NCBI GenBank assembly: GCA_016617785.1
Contig: JADILM010000003.1
Location: forward strand, 2,232,001 to 2,296,000
Length of the DNA: 64,000 nt
Direction: 5' to 3'
Source of the DNA: Sporobolomyces roseus
Taxonomy: Eukaryota > Basidiomycota > Microbotryomycetes > Sporidiobolales > Sporidiobolaceae
In this document: positions 16,636-58,411 of the stretch, piece by piece
How the letters are laid out: every line of letters begins with the position of its first letter
Position numbering within the stretch: the stretch's first letter is position 1
Made by a program: the position numbers and the translations under genes
The notes under the pieces: model-generated
Database searches by the model: none
What the model saw: only the letters and a program-made list of their open reading frames with translations
What the model was told of the DNA's origin: nothing

Positions 16636-17074
16636 CGTGAGAGAGACCGTGAGCGAGATGGGCGAGAGGTGGAAGCGATTCCTGTGAAAGGCGATTGAGA
16701 GGGGTCGGCGCGATCAGAAGGGAGAATGGGAAAGGAGAGAACTAACGAGGGTCGAATCTGATGCTGACGGAGGCCGTATGCAGCTGCCTCCAGGCCTGAG
16801 ACTCGAGTCAAGCTTGAGGGAAGGAAGAGCAGAGAGCAAGAGCGAGAAGCGAATCCAGTTTCAGCGAGAATCGAGAGAGGTCCGCGGTATAGAATTCTGA
16901 GAGCGAGCGGGCGAAGATAATTCGTAAGGTCGATTCTTTGCGAGTTCATCGGCTCTCGTTGCTGAAGACAATATATGACTGCTCAGCTACCTACATTCGC
17001 GAGGTGATTAATCAGCCGACTCCGGAAAGGGCAGATCGAGAGAGACACTTACTCATCCAACTTCTCCTCGTTCA
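16636..17074. promoter_or_regulatory. Upstream region of pseudogene copy A1
   Basis: About 440 bases. Holds a CCGCGG core at 16882-16887 in the context TACCGCGGACC (minus strand), matching the flank of the intact mirror gene at 38867-38872. Downstream of it on the minus strand the two copies stay alignable (GATTCTCGCTGAAACTGGAT). The upstream half CGG of the motif is missing here. Confidence 0.5.
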
Positions 17075-18177
17075 CTATCTCCCGTCGAAATCCTCAAAAG
17101 GAGGTACATCTCGATCATTCCTCCATTCAAAGACCTCACTATCGACCATATAAGGTCTGCTCGCTGACAAGCTTTCTTCCTCCTCGTAAAACACAACCCT
17201 CTTTACTCTGATCGTTTCCGGTTCTCCCTTTGCGAGGGCCATCAATCGAGGGAGGAGAGTAGCCGAGTCGCCAATAGCGAATGGAGACAGGTGTAGTGAC
17301 TCGAGCTGCATCCCAGCGGCATCCGTGAATAGGAGGGATTCGAGATCGTCTGATTCGATAGCGAGTGAGAGGTGTTTGAGATTCGAACATTGACCGATCA
17401 ATCGGAAGAGAGCTGAGTCCGAGTAGTCCGTGGTGATGTCTGATAGTGCGAGGGTTGTGATCTGGGGTAGAAGGTGGCCGAAGAGCTCAGCTGGTCCAGA
17501 AGAAGCGGATTCGGGACTTGCGATAGCGAGATGAGTGAGATTCGGCATGTGAATCGGAGAGAGTGATCCTTGAATCGCTTCGATCTTGCCTCGAACCACT
17601 GGTCGAGAGGAGAAGACTAGGCGACGAAGTTTACTGAAAGAGGGTTTGAGGAAGAGGTTGAATCGGTCGAACGAGAAGATTGCCATTGAGAGGTGTAGAG
17701 TCTCCAGATCTGCAGCGACAGCTATCCGGATGAGAGATATCCCGCAGAGTGTGAGGGGAAACGTTGCTCACTCGGGAATTGGGCAAAGGTTTCGAATCTA
17801 GTCGAATCGCGAAAGTGATACATGGGTCGATTTCTTAGGTAAACGAGATCTCTCCACCATTCGAGAGTAGTCGTCCTCAGTAAGACCGCGATATCTCCAT
17901 CCACTGACAAGTACAACGTTCTCCCTCCTTCCACCGTCCTCATGAGTTGTTGACAGTGTCGCTCCAGTTTTTCATCCCTAAACGTTATATCGCCCATCCA
18001 TACCTCCCTTCGCAGTATCTCTTGCGCTACACGAGTCCACTGAGAATGGACGAGTGCGAAGGAGAGCAGTATCCGAGTGCGTTGGAAGTAATCTTCATGT
18101 TCGAGGGAGGGAGAACCGGGAATAGCTTGGTCGAAGACATTGAGGAGCAGTTCTGGCGGGAGATCGAGGATAGACAT
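17075..18177 (-). CDS. F-box/LRR family protein (copy A2)
   Basis: Two exons, 17772-18177 and 17075-17709 (346 residues), joined by a phase-1 intron within FPN-LETLH. The F-box lies at residues 1-55: SILDLPPELLLNVFDQAI, then LVHSQWTRVAQEILRREVW. The rest is a run of degenerate leucine-rich repeats (LETLHLSM, LRRLVFSS, MPNLTHLAI, ITTLALSDI, NLKHLSLAI, LESLHLS) ending EDFDGR next to the stop. F-box proteins of this type usually act as substrate receptors of SCF ubiquitin ligases; the substrate is unknown. It is nearly the same protein as the one at 37486-38585, about nine residues in ten by eye. The start codon context and intron are kept in both. Confidence 0.85.
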
Positions 18178-18734
18178 TACTGGGGTAAGTTGGAGGTAGT
18201 CCTGAGGATGCTATTGAGGTGTGGAGAGAGGGAAAGGAGGTGGGAGATGAAAGAAATGGGAAGGGGGAGCGGAGATAGGAGGGAGACGAATCGGTTGCTG
18301 TTGAGTTTTCGAGTGTTCTGCTAGTCTACAGAGGGTGTGCTAGGCTGTAAATGAGAGAGAGGAGAGGAGAGGAGAGCGAGTTGAGGGGAAAGATGGATGG
18401 AGAATCGAGGTTCGAGAGGTGTTCTGCGCTGTGGGAGACGGATGAGTTGAGTCTGGAGTGGACTGGCGCATTAGGAGAAGGAGCGAAAGGTGAGACGGAG
18501 TGGAGAGAAAGGGAGAATCTCCGCGAGATTCGAAATTCTTCGGTCGCTGAAGGGTGGATCCTCTCACTGAACTTGTGTATCTCAATCGAGGACAGACCGT
18601 TGTTCGAGGGGAGCAATTACAGGGTCCAAGAAGCGACAAAAAAGAAAGCTACGACAAGCTAAATCATGCTATTTCCGCAACAAAACCCTCAGTAGTTGAT
18701 GGCGCCGTTCAAAAGCCTCCAAGCCAACGACGAT
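18178..18734. repeat. Non-coding part of inverted duplication, copy A
   Basis: This stretch, read on the minus strand, matches 36908-37485 over long parts, including an AACGGCGCCATCAACTACTG block and a GAACAACGGTCTGTCCTCGA block. No gene is supported; the open frames here differ between copies. Confidence 0.6.
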
Positions 18735-19052
18735 TTACATCCTCCTGAGCTGTAGCTCCTGAGCCGGGTGCCTCCAAGTCGAATGAACTAGGGAGAAGGA
18801 TTTCAAGTTTTGCATGCGGTCTTGATCGCGGAAGATAGAGAAGATGACGACGAGAACTTCAGGAGGGAGGCTTTTAGCGAGTGACCTGTCGGGATTCGAG
18901 AAGTAGAGCAAAGGTCGAGCGATCGAGAGGAAGGTTTTCGAGGCAGCGCAGCAGCTGGCGAGATCACCGGAGTATGAAATATTTCTATTATCGGAGTATG
19001 AAATGTTGCTGATGATGGCTCGCAAGAGTTCAGGAGGGATGTAAGGGACCAT
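18735..19052 (-). CDS. Short double-F-box-like protein (copy A3)
   Basis: A 105-residue open frame without the LRR part. It starts MVPYIPPELLRAIISNISYS, continues CCAASKTFLSIARPLLYFSN (one F-box-like unit), and then repeats the pattern as SLPPEVLVVIFSIFRDQD and SFSLVHSTWRHPAQE (a second unit). It stops right after, where full members continue into REVW. The mirror copy at 36587-36907 has the same layout and stops at the equivalent place despite a small indel. It may be a functional mini-F-box protein or a truncated relic; conservation of the open frame in both copies favours use, but not strongly. Confidence 0.55.
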   Translation of the reverse strand: MVPYIPPELLRAIISNISYSDNRNISYSGDLASCCAASKTFLSIARPLLYFSNPDRSLAKSLPPEVLVVIFSIFRDQDRMQNLKSFSLVHSTWRHPAQELQLRRM

Positions 19053-19236
19053 CGAGCGAGTCGTGAGAGTGGAGATAGATCTGGGGAGAAGAGCGAGATC
19101 AGCTGAGCGAGAAGGGCAAAGAAGGTATAGAGGGACTCACAAACGTGCTTGATACCGCGTTTGAGGAGTTTCTCAAACTCGAGGGGGGGGAGAGGGAGAA
19201 GAGAGGAAAGAGAGCAAGAGACGGACCTCCTTCGGA

Positions 19237-19252
19237 CTGACCCGCGGAACTC
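19237..19252 (-). promoter_or_regulatory. CGG-N4-CCGCGG element upstream of copy A3
   Basis: On the minus strand it reads CGGAGTTCCGCGGGTC, preceded by a CGT/CGC triplet tract and GCTT. It lies about 190 bases before the start at 19052. The spaced inverted CGG...CCG triplets are what Zn2Cys6 zinc-cluster regulators bind; that role is inferred. Confidence 0.5.
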
Positions 19253-19256
19253 CGAA

Positions 19257-19267
19257 GCGACGACGGC

Positions 19268-19303
<36 letters not shown>

Positions 19304-19312
19304 ACGACGAGA
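19257..19312. repeat. CGA/CGG trinucleotide microsatellite
   Basis: Imperfect tract of CGA and CGG triplets (TCG/CCG on the minus strand) directly beside the CGG-CCGCGG element. Shorter versions of the same tract accompany that element at other F-box loci. Confidence 0.85.
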
Positions 19313-19542
19313 ATATTCGCCCTACTGATTGAGGCGAAGCGAGCACGATCCAGGAATCTATAACACTGAGTCCAATCGAGGAAAGAGACTGAAAATGTGA
19401 ATTCTTGCGATTCTTCTTCCTTCGACAAGCGTTTCCAATCTACTAGATGCGATGGACTGTAGCTCTACCATACAAGTGATCGTCAGTTCAAGAGCAGGGG
19501 AGGAGTAGAAAGACCCAAACGAAAGAGCTCACCTCATTTCCG

Positions 19543-20631
19543 TTACTCTCCATCAAAATCATCAAAGGATGGCTTGTCTTCGTTCTCCCTCCATTCGACA
19601 ACACCGAGATCTGACTCCGGCAAGTCACATTTCCATTTCTCTTTCGATCCGTACAAAACTACCCTCTTGAATTTGAGCATCTTGTGTTCTCCCTTCACGG
19701 CCATGATGAGAAGAGGGAGCACGAAATCTGCGAACTGTGAATGATCCTCGGAGAGGTGGAGCGATTCGAGATCGAGTTTGACGGTATCGTCGAAGATACC
19801 GTAGAATTCGGTGTTGCAACAATCGGGAGCGAGATGAACGAGATTCGTAGCTTGAGTGAGCACAGTACGTAGCGTGTTGTCAAGGAGTTCGTTGCGCCTG
19901 TCGCTGATCCTGAGAGTCTTGAGTTGCGGGAGGATATTGACGATGACTGCTTCCAAAGGAAAACCGCTACTCGCGGCATCACAGGCAAGGTTGACGAGGC
20001 TCGGCATGCATTCGGGTGAGATGATGCGCTGGAGGTCAGAGTCAGTGCCGGCGAGAGACATCCAATTGACTGCGAGGGTGCGAAGACTGGTGAAGCAACA
20101 TTCGAAAGCGAGTGGTTTGAATAGGATGACACCGAACAGGAGAGAAAGCTTTTCGAGACCTGTTCGTCAGTATTAGCTTGTCAGTATTGCAGTTAGAAAT
20201 AGGTAGGAAGGAGGAGATAGCTTACTCGGGAAATGGGAGCAGAACTCGATACCGATTGGTGCTAAAGGCTTCGGCCAGTGCTGGAGCTGAAGTACAACGA
20301 CTTCCGTCCAGATCTCGTCGCCAGTAGCCTCCAAGAAGGTTTCGAGATTACCAACGACGGTCAAGAACTTGGTTCCCTTTACTCCCTTCTCGACGAGTAA
20401 ACGACCAGCTTCTATAATCCGTTCTGAGTCGTCTGAAGTTGGGTTTGCCATAAGGAAGACTTCCTTCTGCAACGTCGCTTGAGCAGGTTTCGTCCATGTA
20501 GAGTGTACGAGAGAGAAAGTGCAGAGGTCGTGCGCTCGGGGAGGGTAGCTGAAAGGACCTGAAGGATTCGAACCGAGAGTGTGTGAAAAGACACTGTAGA
20601 GGAGTTCCGGAGGGAAAGAAAGGATAGACAT
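19543..20631 (-). CDS. F-box/LRR family protein
   Basis: Two exons, 20226-20631 and 19543-20159 (340 residues), with the family's phase-1 intron (here FPS-LEKL). F-box: SILSFPPELLYSVFSHTLGS and FSLVHSTWTKPAQATLQKEV. The LRR-like middle includes MPSLVNLACD, LPQLKTLRISD and LDLESLHLSED. The end FKRVVLYGSKEKW, EWRENEDKPSFDDFDGE carries the family signature in a slightly altered form. It is outside the inverted duplication and clearly more distant from the other copies. No CCGCGG element was found in its upstream region (20632-21067). Probably an SCF substrate receptor by family. Confidence 0.85.
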
Positions 20632-21067
20632 GGTTGTTTGATAGTCTCCTACAGTTCCCGAGGGTCAGCACGAGCTAGCAAGAGCTGTTGAACACATTGT
20701 TCGATGAGACAGCAAAGACAGAGGAAGCTGGGAGGGCTCACGGGGACGCTGATGTAACACCTTGCAAGTTTCCCGTGTAGTCCTACTGATTGTTTCTGAG
20801 TGTCTAAGCGACGAACAGGTGCTGTTGAGTGAGGAGTAGAACCTAAAGGGCGAATTTGACTTTCTCTGCTTACGACACTTCACTTCCGATGTTAACAAGG
20901 ATCAATGTACTGTAACCCTGATTACATAGCTCTCAAACGTAGCTCGGCAAGATTCGCTCAACTACACCAAATTCGGTCATTGGAATTTGACCAATTTTTC
21001 TCCGCTTCGGATCCTGCAAGCTCGCTTCCCCTCTCTCACTCCTTTCCGCTCCTCTACACCTCATAAG
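20632..21067. promoter_or_regulatory. Divergent intergenic region, F-box gene and HPP gene
   Basis: About 435 bases shared by two divergent genes. No strong motif. An in-frame upstream ATG at 20987 could extend the HPP protein by 27 residues. Confidence 0.4.
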
Positions 21068-31199: not shown

Positions 31200-31706
31200 G
31201 ATCCTCATCTCGTCGCGAGGGAAGACGAGCAATTGAAACTCGAAATCGCTCGTAATTTGTTTGCGAGGCTCCTTGAGCTTCTATCAGTTCGTCACCGATT
31301 CTTTACATCTCCGATCGCCACGTTGATCAATCTTGATTGCAGGGTCCTGGAGATGATCGAGCCACGAACCACTCTTTTTCTCATCGAGGTCAAAGCATTC
31401 CGATTTTCCCTCTCTCGCAATTCGAAGCGCAATCTCAAGGTAGCTCTCTCGGATGGTTCAGTAGATAGTATACTCGTATGAAGAAGGTAGAAAGCCTGTA
31501 GTCCCAAAATTCGGAAACAACTCGAGAGCACATTGCGAGGGCTTATTCTCATACTGCTACGTTGCCCTCTGCTCTACTCGTTATCTTACTCGTACGTATG
31601 CTGCCCCCCACATCGCTGAGCGGAGTTCCGCGGATCGACGATGCAAGCGGACTTTGAGCGATGAACCTCGTGCTTTCTTTCCTCTTCACTCACCAACTCT
31701 TCAACG
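31200..31706. promoter_or_regulatory. Spacer between the two unknown-family genes
   Basis: About 500 bases between tandem copies. Contains the CGG-CCGCGG element at 31621-31637 close to the start of copy 2. Short open frames around 31233-31552 look like decayed or chance sequence. Confidence 0.4.
31621..31637 (+). promoter_or_regulatory. CGG-N4-CCGCGG element upstream of unknown-family gene 2
   Basis: Reads CGGAGTTCCGCGGATCG, about 70 bases before the ATG at 31707. It shares the CGGAGTTCCGCGG core with the F-box-linked element at 19237-19252, although the downstream gene is unrelated. The triplet repeat seen elsewhere is absent here. Confidence 0.5.
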
Positions 31707-33781: not shown

Positions 33782-33889
33782 TTTCACGACTTGATGCAGC
33801 CAGGGGAAGAGGGTTTGATGTCTTTGAGTGGATGTGGGAGAGGAAGATAGGCAGAAAAGAGGGAGAGGAAGGAGGTGGACTCGGGAGGC

Positions 33890-34170: not shown

Positions 34171-34239
34171 ACGGCGGTTCGAGTGTGCTGAGGGAGTATT
34201 AGAGGCAGCCGTCGTCATTACAAAGATCATCATCCACCT

Positions 34240-35058: not shown

Positions 35059-36150
35059 ATGTCGTTCTTCTCCCTCCCACCCGAACTTCTTCTTCTCATC
35101 ACCTCTTTCACCGTCCCCACTCCTTCTCTGAACCGTCAATCCTACGTGAAACGGCAGAGCACACTTCGCTCTCTCTCATTAGTACATCGCAGCTGGACTG
35201 AGATAGCTCAAGAGCTTTTACGGAATTAGGTTGGGTCAGAGAACGCGAAGGCGAGGCAATGGAAGCGAAAGAGAAGTCATTCATCCGGAAAGTAACCGGG
35301 ACCGACTACGTCACGCTAGAAGGGTTCCTCTACGTCACGCTGGGCTACACCAGTTTCAAAATGCGAAACCGAGTAAAATATGTGCGGATGCTGATGGAGG
35401 ACGAGGCCTCTGTAGCAGAGGAGGACTCTGAGGATGAAGGAGACGTCGGTTGTGCACATCTCTGCGAGGTAGCAAGATTCCCTCGTAAGCCTCGTACCGC
35501 TCCTGTCATTTTCGCTCAAACCCGAATTTCTGAATTCATTTATCTGTAGTCCTCGAAGAGCTCGTTCTCGCTCAAGAATTATTCCTCATTGGCATACTCG
35601 ACGAATGGATATCCCTACCCAATCTGAGTCGACTCGTCCTTCAAGGCAAACTGGAGATCGACGACCTCGGATCAACTCCAACTCCCGTCTTTATTCCTCG
35701 CAACACGCCGAACCTCGTCAATCTAGCGCTCGATGAGACCAATCTCGAATACCGGGGCTTCAATCATTACTTCTCCCACATCTTCAACCAAATCTCGACT
35801 CTCGCCATCCGAAATTTCGATGGGGACGGCAGCGCTTCAGCACTGAAATCTCTCGACAAACTTCGCAATCTTCAACATCTATCCCTCGATACCATCCGGT
35901 CCATGAACCAAGTTTGACTCAGACTCAAAGGTTGCAAGTTGCAATCTCTGCATCTGTCATCGAGAGTGCTCAGAAATAAACCGAAATTGACGGGACTCTT
36001 GGATGACATCGCCACGGGGAAAGTCAGAGGGCTCAGGATCAAGCGCGTGATTATCTACGGATCGAAGGTTTCGAGCTCGGAGAGAACTCAAGACGGTATC
36101 GAATGGGGAAGATCAGAGTAGACCGCCTTTCGAGGATTTCGATGGGAGAT
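35059..36150 (+). pseudogene. F-box/LRR family pseudogene with several breaks
   Basis: Starts as a normal member: MSFFSLPPELLLLITSFTV, LVHRSWTEIAQELLRN. At 35227-35229 an in-frame TAG replaces the residue before the usual VW, and one base is missing directly after; the frame resumes as WVREREGEAMEAKEKSF. The family intron (GTAAGC...CTGTAG, about 35486-35550) is kept. LRR-like text follows (NLSRLVLQGKLEI, TPNLVNLALDETN, ISTLAIRN, NLQHLSLDTI), then TGA after MNQV at about 35916. The end has a further frame change between EWGRSE and the expected RPPFEDFDGR. At least four lesions make this a dead gene. Confidence 0.85.
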
Positions 36151-36586
36151 AGGAGAATACTGTGACTTATCTCGCTCTTCGTCGTCTCTTCACTTTGAAA
36201 CTGATCATATTGTCCGTGATCGCAGCTGTATAGCTTTTGTCAAACGAACGAACTCGCAAAGAACACTCGTTTCCTCCGCTTCTCTCGTTCGACTCTTCAC
36301 ATTTCCGATTTTCGAGTTCCCGTTCTCACGTTCGCTATCGAGCGAACTATCGACCTTAATCATCCTCCTGTCGCCGTCATCGCTTCGGAGTTTCCGCGGG
36401 TCAGTCGAAAGGAGGTCCGTCTCTTGCTCTCTTTCCTCTCTTCTCTCTCTCCCCCCTCGAGTCCGGGAACTCCTCAAAAGCGGTACTAAGCACGCTTGTG
36501 AGTCCCTTTATACCTTATTTGCCCCTTCTCGCTCAGTTGATCTCGCTCTTCCCTCCAGATCTATCTCCACTCTCACGACTCGCTCG
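36151..36586. promoter_or_regulatory. Upstream region of copy B3, left border of inverted duplication copy B
   Basis: About 435 bases. From about 36370 onward it matches the minus strand of 19052-19260. The element at 36386-36400 is listed separately. Before 36370 no match to copy A is seen. Confidence 0.5.
36386..36400 (+). promoter_or_regulatory. CGG-N5-CCGCGG element upstream of copy B3
   Basis: Reads CGGAGTTTCCGCGGG after TCGCCGTCATCGCTT, about 190 bases before the ATG at 36587. It is the duplicate of the element at 19237-19252, with the CGG-CCG spacer one base longer. Confidence 0.5.
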
Positions 36587-36907
36587 ATGGTCCCTTACCT
36601 CCCTCCTGAACTCTTGCGACCCATCATCAGCAATATTTCATACTCCGATAACAGAAATATTGCATACTCCGGTGATCTCGCCAGCTGCTGCGCCACCTCG
36701 AAAACCTTCCTCTCCATCGCTCGACCTTTTCTCTATTTCTCGAATCCCGACAGGTCACTCGCTAAAAGCCTCCCTCCTGAAGTCTTTGTCGTCATCTTCT
36801 CTATCTTCCGCGATCAAGACTGCATCCGAAACTTGGAATCCTTCTCCCTAGTTCATTCGACTTGGACGCGCCCGGCCCAGGAAGTTTTACAGCTCAGGAG
36901 GAGGTAA
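36587..36907 (+). CDS. Short double-F-box-like protein (copy B3)
   Basis: A 106-residue open frame, mirror copy of 18735-19052. It contains two F-box-like units in a row, MVPYLPPELLRPIISNISYS/CCATSKTFLSIARPFLYFSN and SLPPEVFVVIFSIFRDQD/ESFSLVHSTWTRPAQEVL, then ends LQLRRR. Relative to copy A it has a small insertion near the end but keeps the frame and nearly the same stop. No LRR-coding sequence follows before the next gene at 37486. It could bind Skp1 without a substrate domain; this is speculation from architecture. Confidence 0.55.
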   Translation: MVPYLPPELLRPIISNISYSDNRNIAYSGDLASCCATSKTFLSIARPFLYFSNPDRSLAKSLPPEVFVVIFSIFRDQDCIRNLESFSLVHSTWTRPAQEVLQLRRR

Positions 36908-37485
36908 ATTGTCGTTGGCTTGGAGGCTTTTAAACGGCGCCATCAACTACTGAGGGTTTGGTTGTGGAAATAGCAAGATTTAGCTTGTCGTAGCTTTCTT
37001 TTTTGTCGCGTCGCTTCTTGACCTCTGTAATATGCTCTCCTCGAACAACGGTCTGTCCTCGATTGAGATACACCAGTCCAGTGAGAGGATCCGCCCTTCT
37101 GCGACCGAAGAATTTTGAATCTTGCGAAGAATCTGCCTTTCTCTCTCTCCTTCGCCTCACCTTTCGCTCCTCTTCGCAACCCGCCAATCCACTGGAGACT
37201 AAGCTCGTTCGACTCTGTCAGCTCAGAACGCCTCTCAAACCTCAGATTCTCAATCTATCTTTCCCTCAACTCGCTCTTTTTCCCTCACTCCAATCTCGCA
37301 GCTACAGCCTAGCACACCTTCAGTAGACCAATCAAACAACCGAGCACCTAACAGCAACTGATCGGCCTCCCTCGAAGTCCTTCTTCCCCTCGAATCTCCC
37401 CTCCCTCTGCTTTCATCTCCCACCTCCTTCCACTCTGGCTACACCTCACTAGTAACCTCAGAACTACCTCCAATCCAGTTCAGTA
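36908..37485. repeat. Non-coding part of inverted duplication, copy B
   Basis: Matches the minus strand of 18178-18734 in blocks, with indels. Open frames on either strand are not shared between copies, so no gene is called. Confidence 0.6.
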
Positions 37486-38585
37486 ATGTCTATCCTCGAC
37501 TTGCCGCCAGAACTACTCCTCAGCATCTTCGAGTACACCATTCCTTCCCCTCCTTCCCTCGAACATGAAGATTACTTCCAACGTACTCGAGTTCTGCTCT
37601 CCTTCGCACTCGTACATTCTCAGTGGACTCGTGTAGCGCAAGAGATACTGCGAAGGGAAGTATGGATGGGCGACATAACGTTCAGGGATGAGAAACTGGA
37701 GCAACACTGTCAACAACTCATGAGAATGGAAGGAGGGAGAACGTTGTACTTGTCAGTGGATGGAGATATCGAGGTGTTGCTGAGGACGACTACTCTCGAA
37801 TGGTGGAGAGATCTCATCTACCTGAGAAATCGACCGATGTATCACTTTCGCAATTCGACGAGATTCGAAACCTTTGCCCAATTCCCGAGTGAGCAACGTT
37901 CCCCCTCACACTATACGGGATATCTCTCATCCGGATAGCTCTCGCTATAGATCTGGAGACTCTGCATATCTCGATGGCAATCTTCTCGTTCGACCGATCC
38001 AACCTCTTCCTCGAACCCTCTTTCACCAAACTTCGTCGCCTAGTCTTCTCCTCTCGACCAGTGATTCGAGGCAAGATCGAAGCCATTCAAGGATTGCTCT
38101 CTCCGACTCACATGCCGAATCTCACCCATCTCGCTATCGCAAGTCCCGAATCCGCCTCTTGTGGTCCAGCTGAGCTCTTCGGTCACCTTCTACCCCAGAT
38201 CACGACCCTTGCATTATCAGACATCACCGAGGACTACTCGGATTCAGCTCTCTTCCGATTGATTGGCCAATGTTCCAATCTCAAACACCTCTCACTCTCT
38301 ATCGAATCAGACGATCTCGAATCCCTCCTCTTCACGGATGCCGCTGGGATGCAGCTCGAGTCACTACACATGTCTTCATTCGCTATTGGCGACTCAACTA
38401 CTCTCCTTCCTCGATTGTTCGCACTCGCTAAAGGAGAACCGGAAACGATCAGAGTGAAGAGGGTTGTGTTCTACGAGGAAGAAGAAAGCTTGTCGGCGAG
38501 CAGACCTTATATGGTCGATAGCGAGGTCCTCGAGTGGAGGAGTGATCGAGATGTACCTCCATTTGAGCATTTCGACGGGAGATAG
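37486..38585 (+). CDS. F-box/LRR family protein (copy B2)
   Basis: Exons 37486-37888 and 37951-38585 (345 residues), intact mirror of 17075-18177. F-box: SILDLPPELLLSIFEYTI and LVHSQWTRVAQEILRREVW. LRR-like text: LETLHISM, LRRLVFSSRP, MPNLTHLAIAS, ITTLALSDITED, NLKHLSLSIES, LESLHMSS. End: RVVFYEEEESLSA, EWRSDRDVPPFEHFDGR (EDFDGR in copy A has become EHFDGR). The stop is followed by a stretch (GTGAACGA) also shared with copy A. Family role: likely SCF ubiquitin-ligase substrate receptor; target unknown. Confidence 0.88.
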
Positions 38586-39113
38586 TGAACGAAGAGAACT
38601 TGGGTGAGTAGTCTATCTTTTTGCGATCTACCTTTTCTTTGCCTTGGCTGATCAGTACGTCGTGACGATAGGTAGCTACGCGGTCCTACGTGGTCTTCAG
38701 ATCGTTTCATCGAGCGAAGGAATTCCGCAGAGAAACTACTTTTCGAAATGCCCTTGTTTCGTTCGAATGTGCAAAACTCTCGTTCCGCAGATCGCTGGGC
38801 TCTCGTTCTGACTCGATTGGACAAGCTAGCTCTCAAGACTCGCCGTCGTCGCTGCTTCGGAGTTACCGCGGACCTCTGTTGATTCTCGCTGAAACTGGAT
38901 CCGCTTCTTGCTCTGGCTATCTACACCTCACTCTTTGACTCTACACGTCGTCGAAGCTCAGGTGTGGAGATAGTCTCTCTTGCTTCTTTCCATCTCCGAA
39001 TTCGTCTCTCGTTCGTTCTCTCCTTTTCTCTTCATCACCTCCTCTAATCCCGCTAACTCCTTGTCTTCTACAGGCCGCTCTCCTCTTCTCCCCTACACCG
39101 CTCTCATTCTCTC
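38586..39113. promoter_or_regulatory. Upstream region of copy B1
   Basis: About 530 bases. The first half matches the 3' flank of copy A2; the second half holds the CGG-CCGCGG element at 38859-38875 and the GATTCTCGCTGAAACTGGAT block shared with copy A1. Confidence 0.5.
38859..38875 (+). promoter_or_regulatory. CGG-N5-CCGCGG element upstream of copy B1
   Basis: Reads CGGAGTTACCGCGGACC after CGCCGTCGTCGCTGCTT, about 240 bases before the ATG at 39114. It closely matches the elements at 58333-58348 and 56553-56569 (minus strand), which belong to other F-box loci. Confidence 0.55.
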
Positions 39114-40214
39114 ATGATGCCCGCCGTCCTATCACTTCCCGTCGAGCTTCTGCTCGATGTCTTCTCGCTCGCCTCTCCGAAATCGCCTTCACAGGATTTC
39201 TCGGTGTACTCTTCTAGACAACGAGATCTTCGCTCTTTCTCCCTCGTACACCGCACATGGACATCACTGGCTCAGGCCGTACTCGAAGAGGAGATCTGGG
39301 TTGATAGGAGAACCCGTTTCGAAACGAGCAGGCGATCGAGGAGAATCATTAAGGACCTCAAGGGAACGAAATACTTGACCGTCGGACATTCTTATAGGTC
39401 AGTCCTTGCATCAAGGGCAGTATCGGATGGCTGGGCTGGATTGAAGTATCTGCTTTACGTGACGGATAAGATGTTTTCGAATGTTGGACTAGCCGAATTC
39501 GCTCGATTGCCCAGTGAGTCGCTTTGCTATACTTCCTTGGCTCGTTTCGCTGACGCTTGTTCTACGCAATGTGCAGATCTCGAGACCCTACATTTCGACG
39601 GTGGCCTTATTGAGAATGACATTTCCGACGACCAGCTCACGTTCCACCATCTTCGTCGCCTGACTTTCGGAAGCGATGCACGATTCAGGGACACTCCCGA
39701 TCATTACAAACAGGTCTTCTCCCCAGCGCGAATGCCGAACCTGGTCCACCTCTCTTTCGATGTCAATTCAGTCTCCGGCGGCTCGTCAAGGGTACTCGAC
39801 CTGATCCTTCCTCAAGTCGAAGCCCTGGCTCTCTTGAACGATAATCGCCGGCTCACTCACCTCCGACTCACGGGTCTCCTGGCTCGAGCCCGAAGTCTGA
39901 AGCACCTGACTCTTCCGAAGGCTTTCAACGCAGCTGCTCTCCTCCTCGACGACGACTTCAGCCTCGGGCTCGAATCTTTCCATCTGCCAATCCGATCTTC
40001 GGAGGATTGGACGAACTGCGAATGGCTGCAGGCAACGCGTAATTGGCTTGTCGGTGTTGCGATCGGAACAAGGAGGAATGTCACGATCGACAGAATCGTG
40101 ATCTACGGATCAAAGAGGGAAGCTCTCGAGACCTGGCCAACACCTGAGTTTGATCTCTTTGAATGGAGGGAGGATTGGAGGAGATTGGCCGTTGAGGAGT
40201 TTGACGGGAGGTAG
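39114..40214 (+). CDS. F-box/LRR family protein (copy B1)
   Basis: Exons 39114-39513 and 39577-40214 (345 residues); the 63-base intron has no stop and can be mistaken for coding. F-box: LSLPVELLLDVFSLASPKS and FSLVHRTWTSLAQAVLEEEI. After the LPN-LETLHF junction come LRR-like units (MPNLVHLSFDV, LPQVEALALLND, SLKHLTLPKAF, GLESFHLPIRSS). End: RIVIYGSKREALE, FEWREDWRRLAVEEFDGR. It is the intact counterpart of the frameshifted copy at 15528-16635. ATG 39114 and 39117 are adjacent; either could start. Likely an SCF receptor by family. Confidence 0.87.
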   Translation: MMPAVLSLPVELLLDVFSLASPKSPSQDFSVYSSRQRDLRSFSLVHRTWTSLAQAVLEEEIWVDRRTRFETSRRSRRIIKDLKGTKYLTVGHSYRSVLASRAVSDGWAGLKYLLYVTDKMFSNVGLAEFARLPSESLCYTSLARFADACSTQCADLETLHFDGGLIENDISDDQLTFHHLRRLTFGSDARFRDTPDHYKQVFSPARMPNLVHLSFDVNSVSGGSSRVLDLILPQVEALALLNDNRRLTHLRLTGLLARARSLKHLTLPKAFNAAALLLDDDFSLGLESFHLPIRSSEDWTNCEWLQATRNWLVGVAIGTRRNVTIDRIVIYGSKREALETWPTPEFDLFEWREDWRRLAVEEFDGR

Positions 40215-41019: not shown

Positions 41020-44000
41020 ATGCTAGCTGCGCGTGTACTGAGCGGCATGAGGACAGGCGTTAGAGAGAATGACCGTGAGGAAAGATCAGGAGGGAATGGA
41101 GGTCTCAACTCGGTTTCAACGTCAACCAGCGAGACAAGCAAGGTCACCAATGACGAGGGACATAATGGGAGAGTGAGGGAGCAAGACCTTGATCGATGGA
41201 AGGAAGATGATGAGGACGATGGTTTCGAGGTTCCGGCGGTGAACGTTGTTGGCTCGAGCAGGGTAATGGGCGAAGGAGACAGCGAAGGATTACTGAAACG
41301 AGAAAGAGCAAAGCGAGCTGGTGAGCCTTCCTTTCTTCGAGCGAAACGAGATTGCTCTGCATTCGAGCGAAAAGCTAACCTTTTTCCTCGAAGGTATCGC
41401 AGTCACTTCGGAATCCTGGGACGACGACTTCCTCTTCCAACATGATCCCACTCCTCCCACCTCTCCAGCCCGTCTTCGATCTCGCACCCCCTCCCGCTCT
41501 TCTCGACCAGTGTCTCCACTCCCTCGTCAACCAAATCTTCTCTCTCCATCTCGACCGAAGTCTCATCCTTCCTCTCCTTCGGTTCCACCTCGTACTCAAG
41601 CCAATCTTCTCACGGCTCCCTCCGCGCGAAACGGAGATCTCAGCGGCATCAACAACCCTTCTCTCGATTCTCTCGTTTCTTCCCTCGATTGGTCAATCGC
41701 ATCGGATCACGAACCTACCCTCACAATCCACAGCAACTCGAATGCGTGTACTCCTCCTACGCCAGTATCTCCTCCCGATTACCATCGATCACATCAACCG
41801 AACCTTTCGACTTCGACAGCTCGACCAACGACTGCATCTTCTCAGCAGACCCTCTCTCCTCCGAGCTCGCATCTTCCGAAGCGACCTTCACCTCGTCCTG
41901 TATCGTACAACTCATCCTCCCGCACACCTTCGAGCGCAACGACGTATCGATCAGAAACACCGAGTTTGACTGCCGACAGTCTTCGAAGTCTTACCTCAGA
42001 AACCACGGGGGATGAGCTCAAGACTGAGACGGAAGATGACGAGACGGAGGATGAACGAAGGACGAGCTCAATGTCGAATCGCCCATCGATATTCGGGTTG
42101 AAAAGGTGGTCTCAGGAAATCATATCGAGTCCTCCAACTTCACCCACTCTCAAGCCAACGAACAGTAAGAGATGGAGATTCGGCAGGACAAAGAAAGAGC
42201 CCTTGGAATCAAAGGAGAATGGTCAGAATGGAGGAATCTTCGGGAGGAGGACGGGACCTAGAGAACCAGAGCAAGTCTCGATCATCGATCAAACGGAGAA
42301 CAAACACTACCTCCGCCGATCGGGACTACCTCTACCTGTACGCGACGGCCAATTCGTAGTGTTGGGGAGAAGAGGGAGAACAGGTGCTGGAGGCTCAGCG
42401 AGTAGGAGCTCAGTCGAAGCGGTCGATGGAGTTCCCGTTCGACCCGCTCCTCCACCTCGCGCAAAACACTCGAGTGGAACATCGACATCGACCACATCCA
42501 CGTCGAGTAGTGACAACATACGATCTCGCCCTCAACGCAACTCGCTTCACTTCCTTCCCATGTCGCTTCAGAACCCAACTCCTCCCGTCCCACAATCTCC
42601 TCATCTTCCTCCTCACTCTCACAGCTGGCAAGAGTACGACGGTGCAACGGATGATCGAGAAGAAGAAACGACTGAAGCCGAAATGAGCGAATTCTCTGGC
42701 GACGAACGATTCCATCTGCCGACCTCCCACTCTCGACTCGATTCACGGAGGAGGAGCGTCGTCACCAATACCCCATCGAACTCATATTCTTCTACTTCGC
42801 CTACCTCTCCTTCCTATTCTGCGAGACCCAATTCTCCGGTCGAATCGATCCTCGGAGACAGAATCGGTCGATGGAACACCTCTCAAGTCTCGTTCGTTTC
42901 GACTTCATCCGCCTTCGGTCTGCATCAGAGTCAGCCTTCGATCACTGAAACCGGTTCGACTGGATACGATACGACTAGACCAGACGATACGATGAAGAAT
43001 CGCAAACGGAAACTCGTCAAACGGAGACCTGGATCTGAGGATACAACTTTCCGAACGGAATCTACCTTCTCGATGGATGACGGCGTGAGTCAACGACCGC
43101 TCCTGTCCGCTGTCTCCTCCAGATCAAGCGCTTCCTCGAAACCTCTTCCCTCGACAACATCCCTACAACTTCCTCCTTCTCACGGTCATCGACAAAGTCC
43201 TTCTCTCCCCTTCGCACAAGAGTCTGATACCGAAGCTGCACAAAGACCAAAGTTTGCTCGTCGAAGGAGCTCGACAACTCCTGGCAAGATTCCTTCGACA
43301 GAAAGAGGTCAAGTCGTCGACATCGATTCCGACTGGCTCGGAATCGTTCCGTTTCCACCTTCTCCGCGGTCCTCTCTCGATGCTCGCAGTTCTCCGTCAA
43401 TTCCACCACTTCCTCTCACTCCTTCTGCAACTTCGAAATGTCCCTCCAGCTCGAATTCTCGCAAAGTTTCCGGTACCGTCAAGTCGCATCCTCCTGTCAC
43501 TGGTCGAACGCAAGCCGAAACGAAGACGAAAAGATCTAGCGGAGGAATCGGTCAATCGATTTCGAACATGCTGTCAAGGTCAACTTCGGCTCTCCCTCTC
43601 GGTGGCAGCAAACGAGCTCCGAGTCCTGCTCCTTCCGCCAAATCTGGGAAATCGAATCGAAGCCTGTTGACGAGGAGTGGATCGAAGAAAGCCAAGAAGA
43701 ATGAGATCAATCAGGAAACCGCACCATCGACTCTGCCGAAATCGCCGTCTCTCTCGCTCCTCAAGAATCGTTCCTCAGCTATCATCTCCCCACCTCACGA
43801 TCTCCCTCCCAGTCTCCCTTCCGCGAAACGACAGTCCTCCTCATCTTCAAAAGCAGCACCATCCCCTTCGAAAACCCCTCATCGACCAAACCCAAGCATT
43901 GAAAAGCCTCGTCCGAGCCGTCCGATCGCTTCATCTCCATCCTTCTTCAGTCGATCTCGCGGTCTATCTCGCTCGACAAACGCGAAGGAATCGACTTCAG

Positions 44001-53059: not shown

Positions 53060-54586
53060 ATGGCTACACAATCAAACTACTCAACAGCTTCACCGACAGC
53101 TACTCCAAGTTTCGGAAACTTGTCGGATCCTCCTACTACTTTGAAATTACTCGTCATTGGTAAATTACCCACCTTCTATTCACTCAGTTGGTGTGGAAGG
53201 GACAGACAGGATAGTCAGATTTGCTATAGGGGTATAGAGTGCGGAACTGGCTTGATAGGGAAGCAGGGGAAGCTGCAGAGGGAAGAAAGGGGAGATCGCC
53301 GTGCACCTTCCATAGCTCTCTGGGATAGAGGGAGAACGAACGCAGGTGTCGGAAATCAGGAGTGAATGCTTCAGAGCGATCTACTGTCCTCTCGTGTTAA
53401 GCCTGCTGGAAGTTACCTCGTTTCGCCCCCACCTACTTTTCGAAACATTCCTGTCTTTTACTCTCATTCAACTCTCACCCGACTCTCCTGCACGCTGTAC
53501 TGACACTCAAACCCTTTAAATATGGTATAGGTGCTTCGAGTGTAGGGAAATCATCGTTACTCTTGAGGTTCACGGATGAAACTTTCTTATCTCCTGAAGA
53601 AACTTCTGGTGAGTTCGAACGGAACCAGCTAGTCTCTGTCTTCCATGCTGACTCGTGTATTCTCATCCGATCCACAGCTACGATCGGAGTTGATTTCAAG
53701 GTCAAAGTGGTAGAAAGGAAGAATCGTCGTTGGAAATTGTCAATTTGGGTGCGCGACCATCATTTGACACGAAATCGCTGCGTCCATCGCTAACAAGCTC
53801 CTCGTGTTGTCGAGGTATGGTTTGTCACAGGATACGGCAGGTCAAGAACGGTTCCGAACTCTCACTTCTTCCTATTATCGAGGAGCACAAGGAGTGATTC
53901 TCGGTACGCTTTCGTCTCTTCTCTTCCCTCGCTCTTCGACTTAGTTCTCTCCCACTAACTCTCGCACCCCGTCTATAGTGTATGATATTACTGCACGAGA
54001 CACGTTTGATTCTCTCGCCTCATGGATCTCGGAACTCGACACCTTTGCGGGAACTGGACCTGCTTCAAGAGAAGTTGTCAGGATGATTGTCGGAAACAAG
54101 GTGGACAAAGAGTTTGGGAGGGTTGTGAGCACCGAGGAAGGAGAGGCGTTTGCGAAGAGTAGGAATCCTCCTTGGTTATTCGTGAGTCGTGGAACTTTGT
54201 GCGATCTTGTTCTGAAGGCAGCGCTGATCATCTGACCTCCTGACCCACAGATGGAATGCTCTGCGAAGAAGGGAGGAGAGGATATCTCGGGTGATGCTGG
54301 AATCTTTGGGAAAGTCGTTGATCGAGTACGTTTGAACTCTCCCTCACTTCTGTCTCTCAGATTCTCTTACGAACTCTTACTGACTCTACCTCCTCGCTCC
54401 ACTCAGATTGTTGATACTCCTTCGCTCTACACGAAATCTCTCCAACAACCGACAACTTCGAATGGGGCAGGCAAGAAACGAGCGGATGGAGGGAAAGCAC
54501 CACCCGGTGGATTCCCTGGAGGACGACAGACGGTCAGTCTCGACGACGAGATGAGCGGAGAGGGAGGAAGCTGGTGCGCTTGCTAG
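53060..54586 (+). CDS. RAB18: Rab18-type small GTPase
   Basis: Seven exons: 53060-53159, 53531-53608, 53678-53748, 53831-53903, 53979-54181, 54251-54325 and 54407-54586 (259 residues). All G motifs are present: P-loop GASSVGKSS (split by intron 1), switch [31 protein letters not shown], and ECSAKK. The [20 protein letters not shown] start and [20 protein letters not shown] point to Rab18, which acts at ER and lipid droplets. It ends in CAC, a CXC double-geranylgeranylation site. A Gly/Lys-rich hypervariable tail precedes it. Intron 1 is unusually long here (371 bases). The N-terminal 25 residues are a Ser/Thr-rich extension. Confidence 0.93.
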
Positions 54587-55087
54587 GCGATATCACGAAG
54601 ATATGCGAACGATTTCGTTTTTCGCTCCTTCCCACCTTCTCGGTCTTCGACTTTCGCTCGACCTCGTTTCGATTCCTTGTACCTACTCCTTACTCCCCTT
54701 TCGCTGATATCGACATTATACCTCTCTCTCCCCTCCCTCACGATTCTACATATTCTCTCGCTTTCCTCTTGTACTTTCTATCACTCTTTCGACTTTCTCT
54801 ACCCTATGACTGAATTCTCTCTTCACGCTTATTTCGATATATCTCTTCTTCTAATCCGCTAGTACTACTTCACATGACCATGTTTTCACTTTCCTCCTCT
54901 CTGGTTTGAGTTCGATTCTCGTTTGACCTTGAGCGAGCTATGATCGCTTGTTTCGTTGTAATTATCTCGTTCGTCTCAACTCTTCAGATGATGCGAACGT
55001 GAAGAAGAAGTTACGAGTACAGACAAGGGCAATCTATCGTCAACGAGTACGGAACAAAAGAATGAAATCGCAAAACAAAACTGATCT
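54587..55087. other. Intergenic region, convergent 3' ends of Rab18 and an F-box gene
   Basis: About 500 bases, T/C-rich on the plus strand, holding the two 3' flanks. No gene seen. Confidence 0.4.
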
Positions 55088-56255
55088 TTATCTACCGTCA
55101 AACCCCTCCCAAGGTAGCTCTGTGTATTCCCTCCATTCATACCGGTCTACCTCAATCTCCGGGCAGAGTCTCCTCACAACTTCCTTGGAGATTTTGTAGA
55201 GTACGATTCTTCCGATAATGACATCTCGATTCTGCCGCCTGCGTAGCTTGTCTATCCACCGCAGCTGTTTCCTCGAATAGTGAAAGAACGTCAGGTGAAG
55301 CGATTCTAGCTCGAACAGGACATGTTTGGGGAAGAGCTGCCACAGGACTCGATTGGTGTCTCCGACCTGAACTGCGAGGTGTTGAAGGTTCGAGTGTTGA
55401 GTTACGCGATGAAGAGCTTTGCTTGGTTCATCCCAGCAGTCCTCAATCCTGTAGCATCGGAGAGCAAGAGTGGTGATTTGGTCGTTGAGGGATACCATGA
55501 CTTCGTCGATTCGCTCGAGGTCCTCGAAATCATCCAGTTCCATGTAGCCGAATGAGTCGTACTCCCATGCGAGGTGCCTGAGATTGGGCATGTGTTGTGT
55601 CCGAAAGAGCTTGTAGTCGTCGCCATCGCGAGTGCCGGGCGCGGGATTTCCCTCAATAGTCAAGCGACGAAGGTTACGCAAGCAGAGCTCCCGGTCGAAT
55701 TGCCTGACCACATAGTCACCGCCCACATGGAGTGTCTCAACGTCTTGATCACGTGCAAGGGCAGTCAGTATGGCGTAACTTGATAAGCACGATGAAGAGA
55801 ATATCCTTACTCGTGAAGCAGGCGAGTTTATCTATTCGGACCGTGCCCAATAGATCGATGACCGTCACGTGCATAGGTCCCGGATACGAGGCAGCGCCTG
55901 CGCTTTTCAGGAATACCGACAGGTTTCCCCAAATCCCGAAATACTTCGTTCGTGGAGACAGTTCCCACTCCTTTCCGTCTGACGATTCACGTTCCTCCAG
56001 TTCAGCAGTATCGATCCACACCTCGAGTTTATTCCGGAGAACTTCTTGCGCAGGAGCCGTCCATTTCCGGTGGACGAGGGTCAGCGCACGAAGATTTCGC
56101 CTCCTCTCGCGATAATCGACATAGATCTGAGTCGGGAGCTCACCTCCAACGAGAGTGAAGATGTCGAGTAAGAGCTCGGGAGGGACGACGAGTGCGACTG
56201 GTAAGAGTTGTTGAGGTAAAGAGGGGAGTTGAGCGGGAGAGGAAGTGAGAGACAT
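55088..56255 (-). CDS. F-box/LRR family protein
   Basis: Exons 55811-56255 and 55088-55743 (366 residues), the longest intact member, with extra residues before the F-box. F-box: VALVVPPELLLDIFTLVGGE and LTLVHRKWTAPAQEVLRNKLEVW. Intron inside FTN-VETLHVGG. LRR-like units: LRRLTIEGNPA, MPNLRHLAWEYD, ITTLALRCY, NLQHLAVQVGD, LESLHLTFF. End: RIVLYKISKEVVRR, YEWREYTELPWEGFDGR. In this copy a Trp-Glu-Gly replaces the usual F-E-D before FDGR. The second-exon acceptor (ATCAAG) is less pyrimidine-rich than usual but keeps the phase. Likely SCF receptor. Confidence 0.85.
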
Positions 56256-56786
56256 GGCGAAAGGAGTTGAGGAGGGAAGGTGAGGTGACGGGGAGAGGAG
56301 GAGTGAAGTGTAAGAGAGAGAAGTGAATCGGTAATCGGAAAGAGGTCGAGAGACCTGTTCAAAGAAACCGAATCAGCGGGAATAGATAGCAAGTGAAGAA
56401 GAGGTAGAGCTCACGTCGAACAGTGAAAAGCGTGTAAAACCTGTCCTTCGCGAACTGGTCAAGTGAGTGACCCCAAGAGTTGACACGACAAGAGTAAGAA
56501 GGAGAAAGAAGAGAGGGGAATCTGATTTCGACTCCCTTGCTTTGAGTGAAAAGGTCCGCGGATTGTCCGAAGCGACCGAGCGACGACGACGACGAGATTA
56601 TCATCGACGAATGAAGGCCTTTTCGAGATCCGGCTACCTGATAAGCGGTCGAATCAAGTGAGGGAAACAAAGGTTGAGATTTCTAGAGTTGAGTTTCGAA
56701 GGTACAGATTGAAAGAGATGGAGAAGAAGTTCTATCTAGTCGGGAAGCCGTTTCAGTGACTAGTATCAGTGTATGCAAAGAAACAG
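56256..56786. promoter_or_regulatory. Region between two minus-strand F-box loci
   Basis: About 530 bases. Upstream region of the F-box gene at 55088-56255, with the CGG-CCGCGG element at 56553-56569 and a (CGA)5-type tract at 56581-56595. Confidence 0.5.
56553..56569 (-). promoter_or_regulatory. CGG-N5-CCGCGG element upstream of the 55.1-56.3 kb F-box gene
   Basis: On the minus strand: CGGACAATCCGCGGACC, preceded by CGTCG repeats and TCGCTT. It lies about 300 bases before the ATG at 56255. The CGG and CCGCGGACC parts match the other copies while the spacer differs, as expected for a bound site. Confidence 0.5.
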
Positions 56787-57982
56787 TCAAACGAAAGGAA
56801 GGATAACGAACGAAATTCGAGCGCGACCATCCAATTGATCGAAACTTTGAACAGCCTGCGGCGATTCGAAGGAGTCGAGATCCAAATCAGGCCATCTATC
56901 CGTCAATTCTCGCGGTAAATTGTCTCCCCCGTGGAACACGATTCTGTCGATTCGCATTCCTGGATCTTCACCCATCATGATCGCAAACAAGCGTGAAAAG
57001 ATTTCCGTTTCTTCTTCACTGTCGTAAAACTCGTCAAGATACAAAGAGTCAAGACTCCAGCCCCGACAAGCGAAAAGGTTTCGCAAAACAGCAAGTTCGG
57101 ATGGAATCGAAAGGTGACGAATGTTGGGGTGTTGAGTGATTGCGGCAGCAGGAGCGCACTTTCCTCCTTGTCTTGCGCAAGGATAGAGAGACTTGAAAGG
57201 TACGGAAGCATGCACTCGACTGCAGCATATGGGAGGCTCGAAGTTAAGTAATCGAGGTGTCGGAGATTTGGCATGTTGAAAGGAGAGAAGAGCTGCTTGC
57301 AAGTCGCCGCAACTTCCGCATTGTTGAACTGATGTCGAGAGTATTCAGTCGGGTAGAGTTCTAGGGTGAGCCTCCGAAGGTTAGGAAGTCGAACTTGAGC
57401 GGGAGCTGGGTCGATCCGCAAATGAAAGGACTGGTCGCACATGGCCTCCTCAATGAGCAGCTCCTCAAGGTCTGAGAGTCAAAGACATTAGGTGAGTACA
57501 AAGAAGAGCGTGGAAGAAAGAATACACGCACTCGTAAAGCAGTTAAAATCCCTCATTCAAACCCCCTTGTCAACGCTGCCGTTCAACAACCGCAAATACC
57601 GCACTTGACGCCATGTCTCGTCTCGAGTTCTGCCTACTAAGTCGTCAATGTACCTCTCGAATGTCAAGTACTTTGGTGTTCTACATCCCGCGTTGATCAT
57701 GCGTCGTGTCCTCCGCGTTACCTCCTTCGCCAGGCCTTGGTCTGATTTCCACACCTCCAACGAGTCCCGCTTCCGATAACAAAACGGTTCCCTCGCGATA
57801 GCGTAGATTTCCTCCGTCAACACTTCCTGTGCGGGATACCTCCAAGTTTTGTGTACGACTGCGAACACCTTGAGGTTTCGGTTTCGTTCTAGGTATCGTT
57901 TGCGATCTTTGGAGGGCGAGTCGCTGACGATGGAGAAGATATCGAGGAGAAGCTCGGGAGGAAGGGAGATGGCGAGAGACAT
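56787..57982 (-). pseudogene. F-box/LRR family pseudogene
   Basis: Begins MSLAISLPPELLLDIFSIVS and FAVVHKTWRYPAQEVLTEEI, a normal F-box start. The frame meets TGA at about 57570 (after VDKGV), then continues MRDFNCFT to the usual intron (GTGCGT...CTCAG) and N-LEELLIEEAM. LRR text follows (LPNLRRLTLELYP, MPNLRHLDYLTSS, LPYLSSLSILA). Near 57180 the frame shifts: the matching sequence resumes as ITQHPNIRHLSIPSE, LDSLYLDEFYD, RIDRIVFHGGD. The end SFDQLDGRARISF is a poor match to EDFDGR. One nonsense and one frameshift make it a likely pseudogene, unless the TGA lies in an unrecognised intron. Confidence 0.75.
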
Positions 57983-58411
57983 GTCGAGAATTGTATGATT
58001 GAAGGGAGTTTGGGCAGAGTGGGAGAAAGTGGACGAGAGAAAGTGGACGAGGGAGAGCGAGGACTTGTCGGGATGAGGGGACGACGAGTGAAGTGTCGAA
58101 GGTTAAAAGGATAGATATCGGAGGAATCCGAATGGAGAGGATCTGAAAAAAGGAGACGAAGAGTCAGCGGGTATTGGCTGAAGAGGAGGGAGCGGAATAC
58201 TCACGGAGTTGCAGCGCGACAAGCAGTATTGGATACGTGCGCTAGAGCTCAAATCCTGTTGAGGTCGACCTTGCGAGTGAATTTGGAGGAAGAAAGAGAC
58301 GAAACTGAACTCGTGCCATCTCCCGTTCAGAAGGTCCGCGGTACTCCGAAGCGACGACGACGACGGCGATCGAAAGTACTAGTGTTGTAGAGCCGTACAC
58401 GAGAGTCAAAG
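57983..58411. promoter_or_regulatory. Divergent intergenic region between F-box pseudogene and the unknown gene
   Basis: About 430 bases with the CGG-CCGCGG element at 58333-58348, which lies about 355 bases before the F-box start and only about 65 bases before the plus-strand ATG at 58412. Confidence 0.45.
58333..58348 (-). promoter_or_regulatory. CGG-N4-CCGCGG element with CGT tract
   Basis: On the minus strand: CGGAGTACCGCGGACC, preceded by a CGTCGTCGTCGTCGCTT tract. It is the cleanest copy of the shared element and may serve the pseudogene at 57982, the gene at 58412, or both. Confidence 0.55.

Follow-up and report, generated by a model that had tools for sequence, protein, structure and literature searches.

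Zinc-cluster sites of the Gal4, Ppr1 and Leu3 type are inverted repeats of the form CGG-Nx-CCG, and Pdr1 and Pdr3 of yeast are zinc-cluster proteins as well. The consensus of the pleiotropic drug response element (PDRE) of yeast Pdr1/Pdr3 reads TCCGCGGA or TCCGTGGA in the available parts of PMC5539612 and PMC2536678, and for C. glabrata the zinc-cluster nature of the Pdr1/Pdr3 type is given in the abstract of PMC2607542. The velvet regulator VosA has an 11-nt consensus with CCGCGG and TGG (PMC3876986, in part). A short sequence with another role is the conserved recombination junction element (CRJE) of msg-I in Pneumocystis jirovecii. As described in PMC5676039, this 33-bp sequence separates the promoter region from the interchangeable genes, is found at the start of the one exon of the gene and includes an imperfect inverted repeat; recombination there is thought to swap genes at one expression site in present-day switching. 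Here we describe an element, (G)(C)TTCGGA-N3/4-CCGCGG, in a 64,000-nucleotide stretch of Sporobolomyces roseus (the window, G000:C3:2232001-2296000) and across the genome of 22.4 Mb in 15 contigs. Its spliced genes and overall gene repertoire suggest a fungus, probably a basidiomycete yeast. The window ends ~34 kb short of the end of contig C3 (2,329,553 bases), and loci elsewhere are named by contig and position (e.g. C3_2174486). From sequence comparison, we consider it fairly probable that this is a start-proximal promoter element, probably bound by a zinc-cluster protein and often accompanied by (CGT)n, and that its ~30 bp form a junction at which promoters and genes have been reassorted.

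Each of these systems resembles the element in part. The right half of the element shares the everted CCG.CGG with zero spacer of the PDRE consensus; the element differs in a third triplet, CGGA, 4-5 bases upstream, in its fixed orientation and start-proximal place, and in genes that belong mostly to lineage-specific families. Of the 54 non-redundant N5 sites, 35 have T at position -1 and 20 have A at +6, the flanking positions of TCCGCGGA. The sole passage with TCCGCGGA in the available text of PMC5821985 concerns a primer. The inverted pair CGG-N4/5-CCG is reminiscent of Gal4-, Ppr1- and Leu3-type sites, but the element has two spacings and its CCG continues as CCGCGG. The VosA consensus shares the CCGCGG core, whereas the sequence logo of the element has CGGA at 4-5 bases and no clear TGG. 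With the CRJE, the element shares an exchange of promoter region and gene at a short common sequence, here by sequence comparison only. It differs in its position upstream of the ATG, in its dispersal over ~90 promoters of unrelated genes and in the old age of the exchanges. A text find in the main text of the R. toruloides cis-element paper (PMC9853887) returned neither CCGCGG nor CGGA. A limited search for CCGCGG promoter motifs in basidiomycetes, judged by titles and the beginnings of abstracts, gave no description of the element, which does not show that it is unpublished.

The bare hexamer CCGCGG was rejected as a signal, with eight copies in the window against a mean of 9.24 in 100 shuffles. 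The composite element, in contrast, is genuine and genome-wide. TTCGGAN{3,4}CCGCGG has 67 matches in the genome and its reversed control 2, CGGAGTN{1,2}CCGCGG has 59 against 0, and GCTTCGGAGTN{1,2}CCGCGG has 22 exact matches against 0. The union of the first two patterns makes up the set of 93 sites used throughout, with 6 in the window, 34 of the CGG-N4-CCG and 59 of the CGG-N5-CCG spacing. The sites are spread over 11 contigs, with 16 on C3 beyond 2.0 Mb. A total of 25 lie within 100 kb of a contig end (~12.5 expected), an excess that is weak outside the C3 cluster (15/77 sites, p 0.085). Removal of near-identical flanks within each spacing class left 84 sites, and a stricter filter left 74. 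The initial annotation had explained two pairs of window sites by duplication and taken the others as independent; what holds of this is that the element is more than a product of duplication.

In the logo of the 84 non-redundant sites, information is limited to three parts, (G)(C)TTCGGA, CCGCGG and the T-rich spacer between them, with bounds at ~-12 and +8. The flanks are near random, save for a rise in pyrimidines from ~+33, and the trailing ACC, earlier regarded as usual, is weak. When the spacer was widened, TTCGGA-N{0,16}-CCGCGG gave 93 matches (a number unrelated to the 93-site set), of which 67 have N3/N4, 7 have N2 and 19 are scattered, a narrow spacing but more than one. The seven N2 matches carry the spacer CT exactly and are seven exact copies of TTCGGACTCCGCGG (e.g. 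G000:C1:3266494, C4:594875 and C10:986958). Replacement of the A of TTCGGA by another base left 1 match, against 3 in the control. The third CGG is mostly not optional, since a CCG not followed by C was found at 29 places (control 4), four of which form one group on C8. In this group, TTCGGAGTTTCCGT is followed by CCGCGG 5-6 bases later (G000:C8:48648, 128660, 157271 and 165066), perhaps another family with a modified site. The palindrome TTCGGA-N{0,8}-TCCGAA was dismissed as a true class, with few places (34) spread across the spacings. Separately, AARAGTGGG occurs 22-30 bp before CCGCGG at 6/74 non-redundant loci (L030, L101, L075, L077, L081 and L082) and further upstream at 2 more; at window position 11941, a site-like TTCGGAGTTTCCG is adjoined by AAGAGTGG, which is similar to AARAGTGGG. 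Five identical matches at G000:C2:1856005-1870894 recur at intervals of exactly 3,718 bases and constitute an array of 3.7 kb units in tandem. In prokaryote genomes, pattern scans gave at least 117 stretches, where we estimate ~240 by chance in 257 Gb, and in viral contigs they gave 12; both are read as chance.

All 93 sites combine two CGG triplet pairs in defined orientation, CGG-N4/5-CCG and CCG.CGG, which is partly imposed by the pattern. This sequence fits a zinc-cluster site. A fungal factor that reads CGG triplets would be the most likely to bind, on the inverted CGG-N4/5-CCG whose right half overlaps the everted CCG.CGG.

The sites point toward the adjacent gene, as the initial annotation had stated for the window. 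With the codon model used here, 64% of single windows in the true frame and 1.3% of those in a wrong frame exceed the threshold; the profiles take the best of neighbouring windows, which raises the false rate above 1.3%. For the 80 sites outside the C3 F-box cluster, the sense strand exceeds the antisense strand in every bin from +100 to +1300 (24-35 versus 4-10 sites). More specifically, the counts are 27 versus 4 at +100, 34 versus 10 at +400 (p 4e-4) and 35 versus 6 at +500 (p 5e-6). A coding-like ATG lies within 600 bp in the sense direction at 66/93 sites, against 23/93 in an antisense control taken from +1400 back to +800, a different stretch from that of the sense count. When ATGs of any kind are considered, the first one is 75-100 bp away at 22/93 sites, compared with 8/93 when counted from +700. 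Several mutually unrelated orphan families have their ATG at a similar distance (C1_160723 98, C1_372141 73, C10_1025411 91, C10_1063467 104 and C4_1664191 113 bp), while other sites have it at 200-375 bp; the F-box loci of the window with the longer distances have predicted 5'-untranslated region (5'-UTR) introns, read by eye.

Among the 74 sites of the stricter set, pyrimidine content reaches 0.70-0.72 at +30 to +70, compared with 0.46-0.62 in other bins, and the element thus lies ~30 bp before a pyrimidine tract. TATAWA was found at 0/74 of these sites on either side, and TATAA upstream at 3/74. Taken together, orientation, ATG distances, 5'-UTR introns, the pyrimidine tract and TATA counts would place the element just before the presumed transcription start. 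Its start-proximal place and fixed orientation look more like those of a core-promoter element than of a typical upstream activating site. The element would thus be a strand-specific component of a TATA-poor promoter class and would direct transcription to begin within the pyrimidine tract ~30-70 bp downstream.

The genes behind the sites extend well beyond F-box genes. These follow 21/93 sites, with 13 in the C3 cluster, 2 at C3 0.99-1.01 Mb, 3 on C5 and 3 on C7, the latter two trios being further subfamilies; the genes of two more sites are F-box-like by eye only. The remaining sites front BTB-like, kinase-like, orphan and a few conserved genes, where BTB-like and kinase-like are by-eye readings and not Pfam hits. 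An F-box-only marker was therefore rejected. The regulon joining two accessory gene families, as initially proposed, does not hold as worded: F-box plus one family is too narrow because the other sites front many unrelated genes. What is borne out genome-wide is a shared, directional, upstream element, which would serve a broad and mostly lineage-specific gene set of F-box subfamilies, BTB-like, kinase-like and orphan families. The F-box superfamily itself is large, with at least 148 places that match PF12937 at E 0.1 or better, many of them clustered on C5 (~28-160 kb) and C9 (~316-470 kb), and mostly without a site; a search with the F-box protein at 39.1 kb of the window gave 3 relatives. 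A table row in the available part of PMC4469406 gives 3-43 F-box genes in ten other genomes, with another model and method. On the same strand, a site precedes nine of the 148 places by 167-375 bp, where chance would give ~0.12; on the opposite strand, none of the 148 has a site within 1.5 kb. Most F-box genes are thus without a site, and most sites are elsewhere.

A Pfam scan of one open reading frame (ORF) per site, chosen by best codon score at 60/93 sites, gave 5 matches to F-box models (2 over the cut-off). Of the other 55 ORFs, 4 were over the curated Pfam cut-off (profilin, M16 peptidase, SET and WW), the profilin match some 700 bp downstream of its site. Among control ORFs from upstream flanks, 6/22 passed the cut-off against 4/55 non-F-box ORFs downstream (Fisher p 0.028). 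This control comprises 22 of 28 eligible ORFs (L024, L035, L004, L017, L019 and L021 omitted) and is unmatched in length (median 126 versus 178 aa); small as it is, it suggests that the site genes are biased to lineage-specific genes. No transporter was among the Pfam matches of these 60 ORFs, most of which had no match at all. As a housekeeping check, 0/47 RRM places lay within 3 kb of a site, a number with too few expected to be informative; 66 RRM matches were listed and 19 dropped, mostly as neighbours in one gene.

We compared all 93 regions with one another, with 200 bp of upstream sequence for about half and 1.5 kb for the rest. Blocks shorter than 100 bases, pairs less than 5 kb apart on one contig and ends less than 120 bases from the sequence limit were left out. 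Among 83 interior ends of homology blocks between non-neighbour loci, 33 are no more than 50 bp from the site in both members. They comprise 19 left ends of gene-sharing blocks at -23 to -42 and 14 right ends of promoter-sharing blocks at +6 to +30. Under one common threshold, similarity is confined to the upstream side in 20 pairs and to the downstream side in 27, and extends over both sides in 13; a few weak pairs may be low-complexity matches. Shuffle-based z-scores illustrate the sharpness of these boundaries. C7_496490/524868 reaches z 33-60 downstream and -0.3 upstream, C5_1025532/1048817 reaches 24-31 downstream and 0 upstream, and the window pair 19242/36394 reaches 38-50 downstream and 4.9 upstream (maximum 6.0 in 40 random pairs).

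The clearest case is the site at 36394. Its upstream module (36122..36399, plus strand) consists of the end of the preceding F-box gene and intergenic DNA to the last base of CCGCGG, and is 75-79% identical to the sequence upstream of C3_2033630, 2085902, 2151852 and 2170936, with homology blocks that stop at that last base. Against two of these four relatives, z is 25-30 upstream and 0.1-1.8 downstream; against all four, the scores are 69-87 upstream and 12-18.5 downstream. The downstream module (36370..38700, plus strand) is 87% identical to the minus-strand arm 16962-19270, and this homology begins at the site. Because the upstream part alone matches the C3 loci and the downstream part alone matches the 19242 arm, the comparison identifies locus 36394 as a chimera, with a promoter of the C3 2.03-2.17 Mb type and a gene of the 19270-16962 type that overlap in the site. 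The two arms belong to an inverted duplication of three tandem F-box genes (window 15528-19270 and 36370-40214, 66-87% identical), which has one edge at sites 19242/36394 and the other at the end of the third genes. A promoter swap considered for 16882/38866 was withdrawn, given that the upstream parts are anciently related and that the 16882 locus carries a deletion.

Taken as a whole, we count ~6 independent downstream-shared events (19242/36394, two L-type F-box groups, C3 versus C5, two within C5, and C7) and one clear two-sided chimera (36394). A Poisson estimate for 6 of 13 independent left ends within a 30-bp window gives 4e-7, a rough figure that rests on our own grouping. The families on C10, C12 and C2 and the C1/C3 orphan trio show the reverse pattern and share upstream sequence with little or no similarity downstream near the site; the genes are paralogues. 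The 175 bp upstream of C10, the one module tested in this way, were found at its 3 places only. The exchanges are old, at ~70-92% identity. Many loci have the same ~30-bp core, often after (CGT)n, in the interval from promoter to gene; for this reason we suggest that it is the junction where duplicated genes acquired other promoters, with homologous or microhomology-mediated exchange as the putative cause of the breakpoints.

In the window, all seven CCGCGG sites listed by the initial annotation are present, and their distances of 252, 195, 79, 193, 248, 306 and 359 bp, counted from the first C of CCGCGG to ATGs read by eye with the help of matches, agree with the ~70-355 bases given there. 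An eighth CCGCGG (43364..43369, plus strand) is located inside a long ORF, without the other parts of the motif, and the view that the window holds seven is thus incorrect for the hexamer. On the minus strand, the half site CCGCGGACC (16879..16887, CCGCGG 16882-16887) precedes an F-box gene with its ATG at 16635 (252 bp, by eye). No CGG is present 5' of its CCGCGG. Its upstream sequence is 95% identical to C3_2174486 up to ~-88 there and then jumps straight to CCGCGG, and for this reason it looks like a deletion that ends at the site, not an exchange. The site GCTTCGGAGTTCCGCGG (19242..19258, minus strand, CGG-N4-CCG) precedes a short F-box gene (ATG 19052, 195 bp, by eye) with a 5'-UTR intron predicted by eye at 19140-19081, and is abutted by a (CGT)n tract at 19259..19310 on the same strand (Tandem Repeats Finder array 19258-19310).

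The site CGGAGTTCCGCGG (31621..31633, plus strand), in which the usual GCTT is absent, lies 79 bp before the ATG of a gene of unknown family, with an additional earlier ATG at 33 bp. This gene is the second copy of a tandem pair (30.2-33.0 kb) and alone has the site, its relative at ~30.2 kb having none; one ORF scanned per gene gave no Pfam match for either. Two N5 sites on the plus strand precede F-box genes, namely GCTTCGGAGTTTCCGCGG of the chimeric locus (36382..36399, ATG 36587, 193 bp) and GCTTCGGAGTTACCGCGG (38854..38871, ATG 39114, 248 bp). The remaining two sites lie on the minus strand with (CGT)n tracts upstream and ATGs and 5'-UTR introns read by eye: GCTTCGGACAATCCGCGG (N5, 56556..56573, ATG 56255, 306 bp, predicted intron 56414-56355) and GCTTCGGAGTACCGCGG (N4, 58336..58352, ATG 57982, 359 bp, predicted intron 58204-58143). 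Genome-wide, at least 2 CGT units precede 30/93 sites and at least 3 precede only 19/93, against at least 3 in 1/1296 background windows; 13 of these 19 are F-box loci.

Several observations weigh against our interpretation of the element as both promoter element and junction. The occurrence of 4- and 5-base spacings together is unusual for one rigid dimer, and the invariance of CGGA and CCGCGG is partly imposed by a search with fixed patterns. Upstream of the sites (n 31), the coding signal gives no uniform picture: sense predominates at -800 to -500 (13 versus 1 at -800), but neither closer in nor further out. Coding-like ATGs are spread (15/66 at 50-125 bp, 20/66 at 200-300 bp) and nearly as common in a sense control from +700 (54 versus 66), so that the ATG test favours strand over distance, and some sites, C4_924657 and C1_4017631 among them, fall inside an ORF or on its antisense strand. 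As to the junction, the 83 block ends come from overlapping pairs and are not independent. For site-less duplicated promoters, the comparison covers one case in the window, that of the gene after the chimera, where the downstream homology runs unbroken. Furthermore, the pattern of the C10, C12, C2 and C1/C3 orphan families could reflect fast gene evolution, as the families are paralogues and the C10 upstream region is at three places only.

In a rival explanation, the element is a regulatory site only, that of a zinc-cluster regulon, and the breakpoints reflect segmental duplication and unequal divergence with selection keeping the site. A sharp, directional motif at many unrelated genes is in line with this, as are the 12/31 left block ends upstream of a site that lie away from it (-110 to -726) and the paralogues that may simply evolve fast. 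We nevertheless regard it as somewhat doubtful. The pairs C5_1025532/1048817 and C7_496490/524868 are ~90% identical from the site onward with no similarity before, which gradual divergence cannot explain; the other 19/31 left ends concentrate at -23 to -42, and the two sides of the 36394 chimera have different sources. It is also conceivable that the (CGT)n tract alone drives recombination and the neighbouring promoter motif is a bystander. The enrichment of the tract beside sites agrees with this, and (CGT)n or a degenerate form of it is present in nearly all of the strong downstream-shared cases, so that the repeat alone may be the real substrate. However, 11 of the window's 15 CGT runs stand apart from any site, and the upstream-shared blocks of the 36394 chimera and the C10 trio pass the core to +6..+15, which means that the overlap includes the motif; on balance this explanation is unlikely.

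A relic or terminus of a mobile element, the alternative raised by the initial annotation, would account for a ~30-bp sequence dispersed at duplication ends, and the hint of rearrangement behind that suggestion is sustained, as homology blocks end at the site in both directions. In its simple form the suggestion fails and is highly improbable: flanks are unrelated beyond ~-12/+8 in the 84 non-redundant sites, the sites are oriented toward genes, and the C7 duplicated block, the only one traced at both ends, spans -42 to +2438 with a site at its 5' end only and no second CCGCGG in the stretch read at its far end. Very unlikely, too, are retrocopies, in which duplicated genes begin at the site because it is the mRNA 5' end. 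The downstream-shared blocks that start at -23..-28, near the presumed start, would fit, but the predicted 5'-UTR introns of the three minus-strand loci and the gap between two coding parts in L-type copies suggest that introns were kept, and upstream-shared blocks that end at the site would be left unexplained. A further reading goes beyond the reassortment junction proposed here and takes the element as a dispersed, genome-wide counterpart of the CRJE, where one sequence is both core-promoter element and recombination junction of dozens of fast-evolving families, possibly through a dedicated recombinase or a break-prone protein-DNA complex. We find it rather improbable. If it were true, duplicated genes could come to lie behind a promoter that already exists. 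In this one assembly, 93 sites on 11 contigs and ~70-92% identity argue against a CRJE-type single expression site with mutually exclusive, ongoing switching.

The element itself is genuine, directional and wider than F-box genes, and coincides with rearrangement junctions in rapidly changing gene families. To our knowledge, core promoters lack a good definition in most fungi, and it is not settled by what route a new or duplicated gene comes by a functional promoter. The 93 located sites, together with the orientation rule and loci whose promoter and gene have different sources, offer a testable answer to how promoters are gained. If confirmed, this would help to account for the persistence of functional promoters in large F-box and orphan families of one genome when their genes are duplicated, and the element could be used to locate where genes without recognisable homologues begin.

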